Under the pieces are notes generated by a model, which saw only the letters and a list, made by a program, of their open reading frames with translations, was not told the origin of the DNA and ran no database searches. A stretch of 41,973 bases of DNA from an archaeon BMS3Bbin15 (GTDB lineage: Archaea > Hydrothermarchaeota > Hydrothermarchaeia > Hydrothermarchaeales > BMS3B): positions 1 through 41,973 of the forward strand of contig BDTY01000114.1 of the NCBI GenBank assembly GCA_002897955.1. Reading direction: 5' to 3'. Below, in pieces: positions 1,599 to 37,501 of the stretch. The position numbers were made by a program, and so were the translations under genes. The number at the start of each line of letters is the position of its first letter. Position 1 is the first letter of the stretch.

Positions 1599-1742
1599 AT
1601 GGCAAGATTTCCAGAAGCAGAAAACAGGCTTTTCCACGTCAAAATTTGCAGGAAATGCAAGGCAAGAAACCCATGGCTGGCCGATAAGTGCAGAAAGTGC
1701 GGTTCCAAGTCACTCAGGACAAAGAAGAAAGAAAAGCGATGA
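1599..1742 (+). CDS. rpl40e: 50S ribosomal protein L40e
   Basis: This 47-residue protein is a structural component of the large ribosomal subunit. In archaea it is a free short protein; in eukaryotes it is fused to ubiquitin. The sequence starts [20 protein letters not shown] and carries a C4 zinc ribbon with CxxC pairs at residues 17/20 and 31/34, followed by a basic tail, all as expected for L40e. A GGAGG sits about 7 bases before the ATG. The stop (1740-1742) is only 8 bases before repeat element copy 1, which separates L40e from the lipid and tRNA synthetase genes that follow on the same strand. The overlapping open frame that begins at 1567 is a shadow of this gene. Confidence 0.96.
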
Positions 1743-1750
1743 AGAGTAAA

Positions 1751-2187
1751 GTCAATCACCACCCGTTAAAACGGGTGGCTTGTCTCGTGAGAGACAAGGG
1801 TAACAGGTTGATTAGGAGGCATTGAAGAATGCAGCAGTTATTGGTAGAGTTCAAGAACACATCAGAGGATGCTCCTCAAGTCCCCTGCTCTGTAAGTGAG
1901 GTATTAAACAGAGAGGAAACTCTCAGTGTGCCTCGCATAGTACTGGCCAATAACAGCTCCGAAGAGGACCAACTCTCTGGCAAGAGTGAACAGGACTTGA
2001 GAGTTCCTGCGTTAAACATGCATAAGAAACCAATACCTGATAGTAGTGCGAGGAACAATGAGCAGGTTAAAATACCTGCTGGTTTGGATTGGATTAGAAA
2101 TTATTACTCTTATACAAATTTTAAACTATGTGAGGTAGGGCAATTCATCCACCCAGTGAAATGGGTGGTCTCCTTGCCCAGATTATT
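1751..2187 (+). mobile_element. IS200/IS605-derived, palindrome-bracketed element, copy 1
   Basis: A 437-bp element matches a second copy at 35802-36223. The left end has two adjacent perfect hairpins: an 8-bp stem with a TAAA loop (1759-1778) and an 8-bp stem with a GTGA loop (1779-1798). AATCA (1754-1758) can pair with TGATT (1809-1813) to close a three-way junction. The right end has a nested hairpin: GGGCAA/TTGCCC (2138-2143, 2174-2179) around CCACCCA/TGGGTGG (2149-2155, 2162-2168). Subterminal hairpins with a CCACCC...GGGTGG theme at both ends and no terminal inverted repeat fit IS200/IS605-type non-autonomous elements (PATEs). No transposase is present. The element ends directly at the GGGP synthase start codon and carries an ORF (1829-2191). 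Family assignment is inference. Confidence 0.75.
1754..1819 (+). other. three-way-junction leader with Shine-Dalgarno, copy 1
   Basis: Two back-to-back hairpins are enclosed by a 5-bp closing helix (1754-1758 with 1809-1813). The AGGAGG ribosome binding site (1814-1819) follows the closing helix immediately and sits 9 bases before the ATG of the element ORF. The single-stranded segment between the second hairpin and the closing helix is about 10 bases long. The arrangement could be just the transposase-recognised left end, or a folded mRNA leader. It is identical in the second copy, so there is no covariation to support an RNA role. Confidence 0.45.
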
Positions 2188-2191
2188 ATGA
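1829..2191 (+). CDS. element-encoded ORF, translationally coupled to GGGP synthase
   Basis: This 120-residue ORF starts [20 protein letters not shown] and is preceded by AGGAGG with 9-base spacing. Its TGA stop overlaps the GGGP synthase ATG as ATGA (2188-2191). The paralogue at 35880-36227 has the same start and the same ATGA overlap with glyA. Residues 1-35 are identical; the rest is diverged, but indels keep the frame and blocks such as NMHKKP and ARNNEQV are shared. No domain is recognised. The protein is polar, with no membrane segment. It may be a decayed C-terminus of a TnpB-type protein or simply a translated leader. The conserved ribosome binding site and coupling argue for translation, but function is unknown. 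Confidence 0.45.
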   Translation: MQQLLVEFKNTSEDAPQVPCSVSEVLNREETLSVPRIVLANNSSEEDQLSGKSEQDLRVPALNMHKKPIPDSSARNNEQVKIPAGLDWIRNYYSYTNFKLCEVGQFIHPVKWVVSLPRLL

Positions 2192-2928
2192 AGGTTCTAA
2201 GCTATATAGAGGAAAGGCTTGAGAAAGGGTCTATGCACTTCACTCTTATTGACCCTGATAAACAGAGTCCCGATAGAGCCGGGATTATTGCAGAGGAGGC
2301 TGAAAGAGCTGGCACAGCTGCAATAATGGTAGGAGGAAGTGCAGGAATAGACCTGTACACCCTTGATACCACTGTGAAAGAAATCAGGAAAAAGGTTAAT
2401 TGCCCTGTGATACTATTTCCCGGAGATGTTTCCGGCGTTTCAAAGTTTGCAGATGCGATATTCTTCATGAGCCTTCTCAATTCACAGAACACCTACTATA
2501 TAACAGGGGCTCAGGCAGTGGGTGCAAAGGCTGTCAAGCTTGCCGGAGTTGAACCTGTTCCCATGGCGTATCTTATTGTCGAACCTGGCGGTGCAGTTGG
2601 CTGGGTGGGAGAAGCAAAGCCACTTCCCAGAAATAAGCCTTCTCTGACAGCAGCATACGCCCTTGCGGCCCAGTACCTGGGATTCAGACTGATTTACCTT
2701 GAGGCAGGCTCCGGTGCACCTTCACCTGTACCTGTGGAATTGATAGAGGCTGTAAAGGCTACTGTTGATATACCTGTTATAGTCGGAGGAGGAATAAAAA
2801 ATAGAGAAGATGCTGAAAAGGTTATAAAGGCTGGAGCCGATATAATAGTTACAGGTACTGCCGTGGAAGAGGCTGAAAATGCTTATTCCAAGGTAAAAGA
2901 AATAGTACAGGCACTGGGTGGTGAATAA
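2188..2928 (+). CDS. geranylgeranylglyceryl phosphate synthase
   Basis: This prenyltransferase joins geranylgeranyl diphosphate to sn-glycerol 1-phosphate, the first committed step of archaeal ether lipid synthesis. The 246-residue TIM-barrel protein shows the family N-terminus MHFTLIDPDK (residues 16-25), YLEAGSGAPSPV for phosphate and glycerol binding, VIVGGGIKN and the C-terminal phosphate loop VTGTAVEE. The start was set at 2188 because the family begins MKVLSYIEERL. The longer frame from 2161 reads through the right-end hairpin of the repeat element. No Shine-Dalgarno lies between that hairpin and the ATG, so initiation probably depends on coupling to the element ORF or on a leaderless transcript. 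The stop is one base before the next gene. Confidence 0.95.
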   Translation: MKVLSYIEERLEKGSMHFTLIDPDKQSPDRAGIIAEEAERAGTAAIMVGGSAGIDLYTLDTTVKEIRKKVNCPVILFPGDVSGVSKFADAIFFMSLLNSQNTYYITGAQAVGAKAVKLAGVEPVPMAYLIVEPGGAVGWVGEAKPLPRNKPSLTAAYALAAQYLGFRLIYLEAGSGAPSPVPVELIEAVKATVDIPVIVGGGIKNREDAEKVIKAGADIIVTGTAVEEAENAYSKVKEIVQALGGE

Positions 2929-15257: not shown

Positions 15258-16790
15258 TTAATACCTTGAAAATAGCTTTTTCAGCAGCCCCTCAAGGCCT
15301 CCCTTTGCCTTATCTTTCTTTTTCGTCTTCCTCACAAGGTCTATACTCCCTCCGCCATGCTTTGTACGTTTGACCCTGACCTCAACAAAAATTGGCTGTT
15401 CGACAGCCTCGCCCACAATTAAAGCCTTTCCAGGTTCAAGCTGCTTTATTTCATCCTCCAGCTCTGGAGTAAAGCTCTCTATACTCTGAGATATGGCACG
15501 CATATCGTTGGGGTTTGTAACCTTTAAAATAATCTGGGTATTGCACTGGCTCAGAACAGACTTATCTATTCTTGCTGGACGCTGGGTAACAACACATAAA
15601 CCCAGGCCGAATTTCCTTCCCTCACTTGCTATTGTCCTGAATACTTTTGTCGATGACATGCTGCCAAAGCCGCGTTCTGGAGCAAAATTATGAGCTTCTT
15701 CAACCAGAAAGAAAAGAGGAGGGATTTTTCCCAGCTTTCTGTCCTCGAATACTTCAGTAGATACCCTTGATACAATAATATCCTGAATTTCAGGGGCAAC
15801 ACCTCTGAGATTTATAATAGACACTATACCCTTCCTTACAAGCTCTGAAGTTTTTACAGGCTTACCTTCAAATATCTTGCTGTCCCTGAGTATTTCGAGA
15901 TTTGTTATAAGCCTGTACTTTGACTTGCTGTCATCCTCATCAAGAACTCTGATTATATCCTCCAGAGTATACCTGCCATAACTCTTAACAACATTCAGAG
16001 CCTGATAGAGAAGCCCTTCCTGGACGTTACTGAGCTTTATGGGAAGAATATCAAGAAAATTGCCGTAGTTCATTCTTGTTATGTCAAGGGTGAGCTTCTT
16101 ATCGCACTGAGGGTTGATATTCATCTGAGTTGAATATTCCACAATATTTTTATATGCTTTTGGTTTAATACCAAAGCGCTCCATTAAATTGAGTTCCTTT
16201 GGAATATCGTTTGGGTTCTTCAGAGAAGAATATTCTCCATGCGGGTCTATAATCACAACAGGCACATTATTCTCAATCAACTCCTCTATAAGCACACCCA
16301 CAGTGTAGCTCTTACCAGCACCTGTTTTTGCAAGTACAGACACATGCTTCTGAACAAGCTTGTTTGGGTTCAGATATACTGGTATATTTGTTTCGTGGCC
16401 ATCGAGTATACCAAGATAAATTCCAGATGTATTGCCAAGCTTAAGAGTTCTCTTTATAATTCCAGCATCAGCTTCATAAACTTTTTCTCCAGGTTTGAAG
16501 GGCATTTTAGGAGTTTTTAATATTTCTCTCTCATCAATATAACCTATTACTCTTGCACTCGCAATTATACGCTCCTCCACCCCAGCCTTCGGAATACTTA
16601 CGCCTGTAATAGCATTTAAAGAGTATGTTTCATTGTACCTTTTAATTTCTCTCACCTTGGCAAGGACCCAGCCATAGAGCTCATGCTTCACCTTTACATA
16701 CTCACCCCTCTGAAGTCTGGCATCCCTGGCTACAATAAAGTTAAAGTCTCCAGAACCCACTTCGCCAAAAATCATACCCACAATTTTCAT
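15258..16790 (-). CDS. herA: HerA-type DNA translocase/helicase ATPase
   Basis: This hexameric bipolar helicase acts with NurA in DNA end resection. The 510-residue protein has the HAS-barrel N-terminus (KIVGMIFGEVGSGDFNFIV), Walker A AKTGAGKS (154-161), the DPHGEYSSL segment after it, Walker B PLFFLVEEAHNFAPERG, and the arginine-finger and Q-like region VVTQRPARIDKSVLSQCN. The start at 16790 was chosen over the longer frame because HerA proteins begin MKIVG and a TATA-like stretch lies upstream. No nurA, mre11 or rad50 gene lies next to it in the window, so it may belong to a related DUF87 HerA-like clade. Confidence 0.9.
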   Translation of the reverse strand: MKIVGMIFGEVGSGDFNFIVARDARLQRGEYVKVKHELYGWVLAKVREIKRYNETYSLNAITGVSIPKAGVEERIIASARVIGYIDEREILKTPKMPFKPGEKVYEADAGIIKRTLKLGNTSGIYLGILDGHETNIPVYLNPNKLVQKHVSVLAKTGAGKSYTVGVLIEELIENNVPVVIIDPHGEYSSLKNPNDIPKELNLMERFGIKPKAYKNIVEYSTQMNINPQCDKKLTLDITRMNYGNFLDILPIKLSNVQEGLLYQALNVVKSYGRYTLEDIIRVLDEDDSKSKYRLITNLEILRDSKIFEGKPVKTSELVRKGIVSIINLRGVAPEIQDIIVSRVSTEVFEDRKLGKIPPLFFLVEEAHNFAPERGFGSMSSTKVFRTIASEGRKFGLGLCVVTQRPARIDKSVLSQCNTQIILKVTNPNDMRAISQSIESFTPELEDEIKQLEPGKALIVGEAVEQPIFVEVRVKRTKHGGGSIDLVRKTKKKDKAKGGLEGLLKKLFSRY

Positions 16791-16866
16791 TGTTGTTATA
16801 TTTACATATGGCATAAATAAAGCTTTACCTAAAATTTTTCTCTTGCTAAAAACCTTGAGTACTAAT
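16791..16866. promoter_or_regulatory. divergent promoter region herA / thioredoxin
   Basis: The 76 bases between the two starts are AT-rich. Read on minus, TTTATTTATG is about 27 bases before the herA ATG, matching a leaderless layout. On plus, AAAATTTTTC is a weak TATA candidate about 35 bases before the thioredoxin ATG. Confidence 0.35.
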
Positions 16867-17256
16867 ATGGAAATTATCAACTTTCTTATAGCCTTTGCGG
16901 TTGCATTCCTTGTTGTATCAAAAATATTACCCAGGCTCTATGGTGTAAGAAAGGGGGAAGAGATTCCTCCAGCCAATAAAGAAATTGAAGAAGCAAAAAA
17001 TAAGGGAGACTTCTTCATGATATACTTCTCCACACCAAGTTGCGGTGCCTGTAAAAGAATGGAACCCACAATAAATAAGCTGAAAAAGAGGTATAAAGTT
17101 GTCAAAGTTGACGCATCAAAGGAAAAAGACGTTGCAAAAGCTTACAGGGTGCTTGGAGTGCCAATGCTTGTCCTTGTGAAGGGTGACAAAGTTGCTTCCA
17201 GCTTTATGGGAATAAAGAGCGAAAAGGAGATTCTCAATAAAATTTCCTCTCTATAA
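16867..17256 (+). CDS. membrane-anchored thioredoxin-like protein
   Basis: This 129-residue protein has an N-terminal membrane helix (about residues 2-18, EIINFLIAFAVAFLVV) followed by a thioredoxin fold. The redox motif is CGAC within FSTPSCGACKRMEP, and the cis-proline loop is GVPMLVL. Basic residues directly follow the helix (SKILPRLYGVRKG), so the positive-inside rule puts the thioredoxin domain in the cytoplasm. A role as CcmG-like haem-pathway reductant is therefore doubtful, even though ccm genes lie 4 kb away. The start at 16867 was chosen because the upstream extension would add only a charged stub. It overlaps the 3' end of the epimerase gene by 23 bases (convergent). Confidence 0.85.
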   Translation: MEIINFLIAFAVAFLVVSKILPRLYGVRKGEEIPPANKEIEEAKNKGDFFMIYFSTPSCGACKRMEPTINKLKKRYKVVKVDASKEKDVAKAYRVLGVPMLVLVKGDKVASSFMGIKSEKEILNKISSL

Positions 17257-35744: not shown

Positions 35745-35801
35745 GAACTTTTCTCTCGTTAGCCAGCTATTAAAAGTCAACATCCAAATTAAGGTGAGAG
35801 T

Positions 35802-36223
35802 GTCAATCACCACCCGTTAAAACGGGTGGCTTGTCTCGTGAGAGACAAGGGTAACAGGTTGATTAGGAGGCATTGAAGAATGCAGCAGTTATTGGTAGAG
35901 TTCAAGAACACATCAGAGGATGCTCCTCAAGTCCCCTGCTCTGTAAGTGAGGTATTAAACAGAGAGGAAACTCTCAGTGTGCCCTACAAAGTACTGACTG
36001 ATAACAGCTCCGATGAGGACTTACACTCTGGCAAGAGTGGACAGGACTTGCGAGTCCCTGTCATAAACATGCATAAGAAACCGTGTTTACCTGATAGTGC
36101 GAGAAACAATGAGCAGGTTGAGATACTTACTGGTTTGGATTGGATTAAAATTATAATTTTTAAAGAGGTGAAAAGGGCAATTCCTCAACCCATTGAAATA
36201 GGTGGTCTCATTGCCCGAATATT
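35802..36223 (+). mobile_element. IS200/IS605-derived, palindrome-bracketed element, copy 2
   Basis: This 422-bp element matches copy 1. Bases 35802-35983 are identical to 1751-1932 without a mismatch (182 bp), including both left-end hairpins (35810-35829, 35830-35849) and the AGGAGG (35865-35870). The remainder is diverged, with in-frame indels. The right-end hairpin keeps an outer stem GGGCAAT/ATTGCCC (36175-36181, 36210-36216), but its inner stem has lost two pairs relative to copy 1 (CAACCCA against TAGGTGG). It ends at the glyA start codon. The left flank shares only GAG with copy 1, so the left boundary at GTCAATC is well defined. Confidence 0.75.
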
Positions 36224-36227
36224 ATGA
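35880..36227 (+). CDS. element-encoded ORF, translationally coupled to glyA
   Basis: This 115-residue ORF is the paralogue of the one at 1829-2191. It starts [20 protein letters not shown] after AGGAGG and ends in TGA overlapping the glyA ATG as ATGA (36224-36227). Both indels against copy 1 keep the frame. Shared blocks after the identical N-terminus include NSS-EDL, SGKS-QDLRVP, NMHKKP and ARNNEQV. No domain or membrane helix is recognised. The C-terminal residues are encoded by the right-end hairpin and so differ between copies. It may be a TnpB remnant or a leader ORF. Confidence 0.45.
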
Positions 36228-37501
36228 ACAGAGACAGTGCTTTCAGAGTAAGAGAGATTTTGGAAGAACATCACAGATGGTTTTCAGAGAGTTTGCCAAT
36301 GATTGCCAGTGAGAATATTACCTCTCTTCTGGTAAGAGAAGTGTGTGCCAGCGACTTTTCTCATAGATATGCAGAGGGACCGCCTGGCAGACGCTTCTAT
36401 CAGGGATGTAAATATATAGATGAAATTGAATTTCTCACAATTGACCTTGCAAAGAAGCTTTTTGAGGCAGAATATGCCAATGTTCAGCCAATTTCTGGCA
36501 CTATAGCTAATCTGGCCTGTTTTGATTCTATTGCAAAACCAGGAGATACCATGATATCCCTTAATGTACCTCATGGTGGTCATATATCACATTCTGAAAT
36601 AAGTGCCGCTGGTGTTAGAGGCTTAAAAGTGAAAACTTTTCCATTTGATGTAGATGAGATGAATATAGATATTGACAGGGCTGAAAAGAAGATAAGAGAG
36701 ATTAAACCGAAAATAGTTCTTTTCGGTGCAAGTATATTTTTATTCCCTCACCCTGTTAAGGAACTATATGATGCCTGCAGGGAGAGCGGAGCAACAATAA
36801 TGTATGATGCTGCCCATGTTCTGGGTCTGATTGCAGGTAAGAAATTCCAGCAGCCCTTTAAAGAGGGTGTGGATGTTATGTCAGCTTCGAGACACAAGAC
36901 CTTCCCGGGACCTCAGGGTGGCGTAATTCTGGCAAAGGAAAAGTTTGGGAAGAAGATTTCAAAGGCAGTTTTCCCCGGTCTTGTGAGTAACCACCATCTT
37001 CACCACATGGCAGGCTTTGCCGTGGCTTTATCGGAAATGCTTGAATATGGAGAAGCCTATGCCAGTCAGATAGTCAGAAATTCCAAAGCTCTTGCCCAGG
37101 CTCTTTACGACTCTGGTTTCAAAGTCCTCTGTGAACATAAAGGTTTTACTGAGAGTCATCAGGTGGTTGTGGACATTTCTGATAATGGTGGAGGCACATG
37201 GGTTGCTGAAAATCTTGAAAAAGCAAATATAATACTCAACAAAAACCTTTTACCCTGGGATGATATAAACAACAGTGCGAATCCAAGTGGTATAAGACTC
37301 GGTACACAGGAATTGACAAGACTTGGAATGAAAGAGGGTGACATGCAGGACATCGCAAAATTAATAAAGAAGGTTGTCATAGATAGGCAGACACCCGAAA
37401 GAGTTAAAAAGGAAGTTGGAGAACTAAGGAAAGAGTTTAATAAAGTTCACTACAGCTTTGATGGAAAAGCTGATGCTTACAGTTATATAAGATTCTTTTA
37501 G
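36224..37501 (+). CDS. glyA: serine hydroxymethyltransferase
   Basis: This PLP enzyme interconverts serine and glycine with transfer of a C1 unit to tetrahydromethanopterin or folate. The 425-residue protein has the archaeal form: [20 protein letters not shown] at the N-terminus, [49 protein letters not shown] and the PLP lysine in [14 protein letters not shown]. The C-terminus is shorter than the bacterial one. No ribosome binding site lies between the element hairpin and this ATG, so expression may depend on the coupled ORF ahead of it or on promoter-like AT-rich DNA inside the element (36147-36163). Confidence 0.97.

Follow-up and report, generated by a model that had tools for sequence, protein, structure and literature searches.

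IscB/HEARO transposons seated on archaeal start codons, and a proposed translation relay into the host gene

How could a gene tolerate a transposon placed directly before its start codon? The question is raised by two loci of the window (the whole stretch of DNA analysed, 41,973 nt of contig BDTY01000114.1 from the archaeon BMS3Bbin15), where related elements adjoin the genes for GGGP synthase and serine hydroxymethyltransferase (glyA). An earlier note, made from the letters alone, had placed them at 1751-2187 and 35802-36223, directly before these two genes. Both placements are correct, the ATGA that follows lying at 2188-2191 (the start of GGGP synthase) and at 36224-36227 (the start of glyA), and the AGGAGG motifs and ORFs of 120 and 115 codons with their TGA inside the ATGA are present in the sequence of both copies. 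The features are as follows:

1599-1743, plus strand: ribosomal protein L40e-like ORF (named by sequence inspection), stopping 7 nt 5′ of copy 1
1751-2187, plus strand: copy 1, an internally deleted ISC (IscB/HEARO) element adjoining the GGGP synthase start codon on its 5′ side, with ends common to full-length copies
1751-1973, plus strand: HEARO RNA, that is, the IscB omega-RNA, of copy 1 (Rfam RF02033, 110.5 bits, gathering score 83)
1814-1819, plus strand: AGGAGG 5′ of the element ORF, within the HEARO RNA of copy 1 (from the sequence)
1829-2191, plus strand: element ORF of copy 1, 120 codons, sharing its TGA with the GGGP synthase ATG as ATGA
2132-2136, plus strand: GAGGT, Shine-Dalgarno-like, directly 5′ of the right-end hairpin of copy 1 (from the sequence)
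2138-2179, plus strand: right-end hairpin of copy 1, GGGCAA...TTGCCC with inner CCACCC/GGGTGG (-24.6 kcal/mol)
2188-2191, plus strand: ATGA target, the GGGP synthase start codon plus A, belonging to the target and not to the element (empty sites at 11 other loci)
2188-2928, plus strand: GGGP synthase (PcrB family; Pfam PF01884, E 9.1e-68)
16697-16840, minus strand: empty site with an unoccupied ATGAAA start, ortholog of the G001 locus where copy L147 precedes a HerA-like ATPase gene
35793-35797, plus strand: GGTGA, probable native Shine-Dalgarno of glyA, with the 422-nt element now between GGTGA and ATG
35802-36223, plus strand: copy 2, an internally deleted ISC element adjoining the glyA start codon on its 5′ side, with the other right-end frame solution and a 1-nt shorter end
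35802-36024, plus strand: HEARO RNA of copy 2 (Rfam RF02033, 108.7 bits)
35865-35870, plus strand: AGGAGG 5′ of the element ORF of copy 2 (from the sequence)
35880-36227, plus strand: element ORF of copy 2, 115 codons, its TGA overlapping the glyA ATG
36165-36171, plus strand: GAGGTGA, Shine-Dalgarno-like, directly 5′ of the right-end hairpin of copy 2 (from the sequence)
36175-36216, plus strand: right-end hairpin of copy 2 (-12.5 kcal/mol, no stronger than shuffles)
36224-37501, plus strand: glyA, serine hydroxymethyltransferase (Pfam PF00464, E 1.3e-83)

The two copies match at 87%, their first ~180 bases being identical, and in both the HEARO RNA covers the complete Rfam RF02033 model (1-211), with the first base of the element at model position 1. 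Both are internally deleted ISC (IscB/HEARO) transposons, since longer copies run the same ORF into IscB (‘...NMRGKPLMPTRPRKARILLKQ...’). In these longer copies IscB shows the PLMP, RuvC/RRXRR and HNH regions, and in one of them (L131) the protein has 450 aa, carries PF14239 and HNH domains in Pfam and matches solved IscB proteins of the PDB at 9e-48. HEARO and IscB are known to form one system (PMC9755519). Internal deletion has left both window copies without IscB, and the ORF of copy 1 is a remnant of the IscB N-terminal extension fused to a right-end mini-ORF; 13 of the 16 copies that keep the iscB 3′ end have such a mini-ORF, 29 codons long and overlapping the end of iscB, which runs to the same TGA. 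The family named in the earlier note needs refining to ISC/IscB (HEARO), and the AGGAGG and ATG of the ORF both lie within the omega-RNA gene in each window copy. ISC elements are mobilized in the manner of IS200/IS605, and the copies show imperfect hairpins at both ends, without terminal inverted repeats and without target site duplication, as that family does. A plain TnpB-type IS605 element is ruled out, the internal gene being iscB and the RNA being HEARO.

The genome of BMS3Bbin15 (1.74 Mb, 123 contigs) contains 43 matches to the element and 28 to HEARO, and one congener contains 43 HEARO matches, whereas HEARO was found in none of 39 further archaeal genomes, sampled from family up to domain, and a DNA-level search of plasmids for the element gave no match. 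The search for Y1 TnpA (PF01797) found none in the own genome and 13 matches in the congener, so the copies in the own genome may no longer be mobile. One Y1 transposase gene (L200, G001:C6:2766-3128) ends in a hairpin like the ISC right end (CCACCCATTGAAATGGGTGG), and its product is a candidate mobilizer of the family.

The origin of the start codon is settled by empty sites, for which the joined flanks of each copy were compared with both genomes. At 11 orthologous empty sites, one of which (KaiC-like, L005) is a second locus of the own genome and not a congener ortholog, the left flank runs straight into the start codon with no target duplication, as in ggcaggtaatact directly followed by ATGAAG for L21e and caggagatagat directly followed by ATGAAG for phosphoglycerate mutase; one of these sites has a GTGA start instead of ATGA. 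The DNA ligase pair, beyond these eleven, shows a 14-nt difference at the junction. The alternative once offered, that the right end itself encodes the ATGA, is ruled out by the empty sites, which already bear it. Weinberg et al. are said to have described, in 2009, HEARO insertion before ATGA or GTGA. Many of the empty-site loci have a native Shine-Dalgarno in the left flank and the start codon lies in the target; therefore, the element splits one from the other, placing about 240 to 1500 nt between them (the native context at glyA reads aaggtgagagt at 35791-35801). The second KaiC-like locus (G000:C92:26804-26948) matches both L005 flanks at 92% without the element, and the gene seems, from this match, to have been duplicated together with its upstream region. 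For the empty site of the window, the insertion in the congener implies that the ORF at 15258-16880 (minus strand) starts at ATGAAAATTGTG within 16697-16840, and the TTG start listed for it is probably wrong.

The preference for start codons holds beyond the two window copies. The own genome and the congener together yielded 47 intact right ends that finish in ATGA, and in 37 of these the ATG is exactly the first codon of an ORF measuring 60 aa or more. Counted over independent sites, 34 of 44 are at starts (p = 2e-8), as compared to a null of 16/45 (36%) that assumes the loss of every intragenic insertion. This null was drawn from the single 42-kb window, in which gene calls are approximate and ATGA is found at 16 start codons, at 29 intergenic positions other than starts and at 365 positions inside genes. 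The downstream genes, most though not all of which received Pfam names, encode GGGP synthase, SHMT, ATP-dependent DNA ligase, B-family DNA polymerase, ribosomal protein L21e, phosphoglycerate mutase, tRNA endonuclease, a HerA-like ATPase, a ribosome biogenesis protein, a member of the amino-acid kinase family, MutL, CobS, a menaquinone biosynthesis protein and a KaiC-like ATPase, among others, and many of them are probably essential. Right ends found beyond the first search precede the genes for OMP decarboxylase, chorismate mutase/prephenate dehydratase and a UPF0113 protein, and two full-length IscB copies lie before a ferredoxin-type protein and, as judged by eye, an fdhD-like ORF. The docking on start codons proposed in the earlier note is thus borne out by the census, the precise empty sites and the named downstream genes; right ends at random places without ATGA overlap are not the pattern in the genome and its relative. 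A brief look at 12 bacterial plasmid IscB copies revealed the ATGA start of the next gene directly past the right end in L212 and L214, the others having no such start there or being ambiguous.

This bias, we infer, comes from ATGA targeting, the loss of intragenic insertions and the retention of omega-RNA copies under a host promoter. Six minimal copies of ~50 nt have the same ends and target, lack the ORF and the Shine-Dalgarno, and none of them lies at a recognized gene start, which points to insertion at ATGA wherever it occurs, with retention producing the bias; one of the six precedes an unassigned 70-aa ORF, and Fisher p is 0.004 or 2e-4 depending on that copy, the non-start and minimal groups both being small. 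The six minimal copies (among them L040, L041, L222, L223 and L224) consist only of fused parts of the left- and right-end hairpins. Intragenic copies would be purged, and those bearing a means of passing translation on to the gene would survive at starts. Moreover, re-homing driven by IscB, of the kind described for TnpB (PMC11870625), would favour sense insertions just before genes, because the guide lies upstream of the HEARO 5′ end and only copies transcribed from a host promoter would make a matching guide; for copy 1, judging from its position, the guide would be the host sequence upstream of the element. It could also be that the transposase picks start regions directly, for example as single-stranded DNA at highly transcribed starts, which would be compatible with translational coupling. 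The very strong bias and the Y1 TnpA genes of the congener would fit such a choice, but we hold it to be rather doubtful, as the minimal copies share the ends and the ATGA target without being at recognized starts, and the known targets of IS200/IS605 elements are of only 4-5 nt.

Retention at starts brings the element ORF into focus. In 14 of the 19 short start-codon copies no stop interrupts it between the vicinity of the AGGAGG and the TGA within the ATGA, with twelve ORFs ending exactly there (102, 111, 114, 115, 115, 117, 118, 120, 120, 120, 120 and 122 codons) and two further copies open to that TGA; the frame-keeping indels first noticed in the window pair are accordingly found beyond it. 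Of the ORF-type copies away from start codons, none of 4 keeps the frame (p = 0.014, a small sample). When each copy's own substitutions are reshuffled, 35.6 in-frame stops are expected overall and 14.1 in the linker (neither HEARO nor right end), against 5 and 2 seen, and indels are multiples of three in 8 of 9 cases within the ORF of intact copies versus 2 of 18 in the preceding 78 nt (Fisher p = 1.7e-4, a test conditioned on intactness), or in 15 of 30 versus 3 of 20 before the ORF for all copies (p = 0.016), stop and indel counts alike overstating independence because the copies share ancestry. The right-end hairpin itself is passed in two frames, as HPLKWVVSLPRLL before the stop in one subfamily and as PPIEMGGLLAQLL before the stop in the other, a 1-nt shorter right end bringing back the TGA, so that two frames reach one TGA. 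The ratio pN/pS is 0.93 in the HEARO part, 0.57 in the linker and 0.65 in the right end, with flat codon-position rates: it is the frame, rather than the protein, that is kept, and the amino acids are weakly conserved. The upstream frame is, by these comparisons, under selection to stay open. Chance overlap of right ends with starts is ruled out by the start-codon bias and the depletion of in-frame stops.

The best explanation, and in our opinion a likely one, is that ATGA-targeted insertion is tolerated through termination-reinitiation coupling. ISC elements and their internally deleted derivatives insert precisely 5′ of ATGA (or GTGA) without duplicating the tetranucleotide, and the persisting copies are overwhelmingly those in which it is a start codon, the element then lying between the Shine-Dalgarno and the AUG. 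Such an insertion alone should silence the host gene, and translation borne by the element would make it tolerable: ribosomes would initiate at the AGGAGG-ATG embedded in the omega-RNA, or else translate iscB followed by the right-end mini-ORF, continue in the open frame as far as the element reaches and terminate at the TGA of the target ATGA (TTA TGA), where the terminating ribosome would reuse the overlapping AUG. In operons, ribosomes terminating at ATGA stop-start overlaps reinitiate, and both window copies show the stop and start overlapping as ATGA, as in coupled gene pairs. Termination-reinitiation accounts for the frame, for the weak amino-acid constraint and for tolerated insertions before probably essential genes. 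Selection on the frame supports, indirectly, a coupling of the element ORF to the host gene; the element ORFs would be translated and the coupling would maintain host gene expression. Counted against this explanation is a further constraint on the right end, whose hairpin also serves for transposase binding. Furthermore, 5 of the 19 short start-codon copies have a broken frame before apparently intact genes, so the ORF cannot be a strict requirement; in these copies a hairpin-bridged Shine-Dalgarno or another start may suffice. The earlier notion of a regulatory domestication finds no support. The feature travels with the transposon family, is present at many genes that have nothing in common, and resembles a means of making insertions harmless more than a recruitment by the host.

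A bridged Shine-Dalgarno could, in principle, do all the work. The earlier note had seen no other ribosome binding site before the downstream genes, which is right for the usual distance; however, almost every long right end has GAGGT or GAGGTGA directly 5′ of its hairpin, at a distance of 9-11 nt to the AUG once the hairpin is excluded. The downstream gene would then initiate alone, the hairpin looping out ~42 nt to leave a Shine-Dalgarno-AUG distance of ~9-11 nt, and the ORF would be incidental. The hairpin does fold (its inner stem reads CCAACC/GGTTGG in other copies), and broken-ORF copies such as L005, with AGGAGGTGA there, would be explained. We consider this unlikely as the whole account, since it leaves the open frame upstream of the motif and the two compensating frames unexplained, the glyA hairpin is weak as RNA, and motif and hairpin could be kept as a transposon end. 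Under termination-reinitiation coupling, the bridged motif may assist as a second, compatible route.

It is very unlikely that the product of 102-122 aa has a function as a protein, be it as a partner of IscB in truncated form or in transposition, with the ATGA overlap as a by-product of target choice: its ORF stays open and its N-terminal part is common to full-length IscB copies, but the weak amino-acid constraint (pN/pS 0.57-0.93, flat codon-position rates) and the two unrelated C-terminal sequences led us to reject a functional small protein, the product has no Pfam match and the ORF is broken in 4/4 non-start copies. An absence of any function, with young and related copies in neutral decay, the overlap given by the ATGA target (its TGA lies one base off the ATG, so 1 frame in 3 ends there) and the frame open by common descent, is just as improbable in view of so few stops at ~10-20% divergence, the frame-keeping indels, the compensating frames, and the separation of host genes, very probably essential ones, from their own Shine-Dalgarno.

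As in other ISC/IscB-omegaRNA (OMEGA) elements, the HEARO RNA lies upstream of iscB, IscB has its PLMP, RuvC and HNH parts, the ends are hairpins, there is no target duplication and the target motif is on the right (3′) side. Tested IscBs recognize target-adjacent motifs such as NTAAA or NWRGNA (PMC13180657), and ATGA(A) is predicted to be the TAM of these archaeal IscBs. In the archaeal elements the ORF reads through the omega-RNA into IscB, whereas stops lie there in the bacterial plasmid IscBs checked, and, unlike in known ISC elements, the ORFs end on the TGA of the target and the copies sit systematically on start codons. IS200/IS605 (TnpB) elements and their MITE-like derivatives likewise have subterminal hairpins, seamless insertion beside a short motif and internally deleted copies mobilized in trans, but they carry TnpB instead of IscB and the motif is on the opposite side; besides, no Y1 transposase was detected in the own genome. 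The ATGA overlap and the proposed reinitiation resemble operon coupling, except that a mobile element supplies the upstream cistron and the target site completes the stop codon. IStrons are also transposons with a device rendering insertions harmless to host genes (PMC4227781); theirs is self-splicing inside genes, and the one proposed here is translational coupling at the start codon, which would be, if true, the translational counterpart of theirs.

The literature search returned no report of start-codon insertion of IscB, HEARO or IS605, nor of coupling; unreported in the literature searched are a systematic occupation of start codons that empty sites prove, the reading of an ORF through the omega-RNA in this lineage and the selection for a frame ending on the target TGA. 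A transposon with a relative of the Cas9 ancestor would have colonized dozens of genes, essential ones probably among them, at the point where each is most vulnerable, and a general answer is suggested for how insertion there is tolerated: the host start codon completes the transposon stop codon, which would also explain in a simple way why HEARO elements target ATGA/GTGA. The joint reading is that of an RNA-guided-nuclease transposon with a built-in translation relay (an omega-RNA-embedded start, IscB or the truncated ORF, and the right-end mini-ORF) and a stop supplied by the target, which could come to separate Shine-Dalgarno and AUG in any gene that starts with ATGA, essential ones included, without silencing it, while host transcription would yield the guide RNA protecting the insertion; on this proposition as a whole our judgement is evenly divided. 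For annotation, short ORFs before such genes should be taken as transposon remnants, not as genes.

Some further traces of copies acting on each other were observed. The GGGP synthase site is also occupied in SZUA-158 (L097), an orthologous insertion whose HEARO half comes from a different subfamily within flanks that are ~95% identical (window 1751-2187 compared with L097 and L121), a pattern which suggests gene conversion between copies. Copies L148 and L136, in opposite orientations, bracket a segment in L233 (G001:C46:7000-14500) whose outer flanks are joined in G000:C77, suggesting, from this arrangement, an inversion via recombination between transposon copies. Finally, L147 (G001:C9) differs from every other copy in that its right-end hairpin has an inverted interior, and its ORF stays open all the way across the hairpin.
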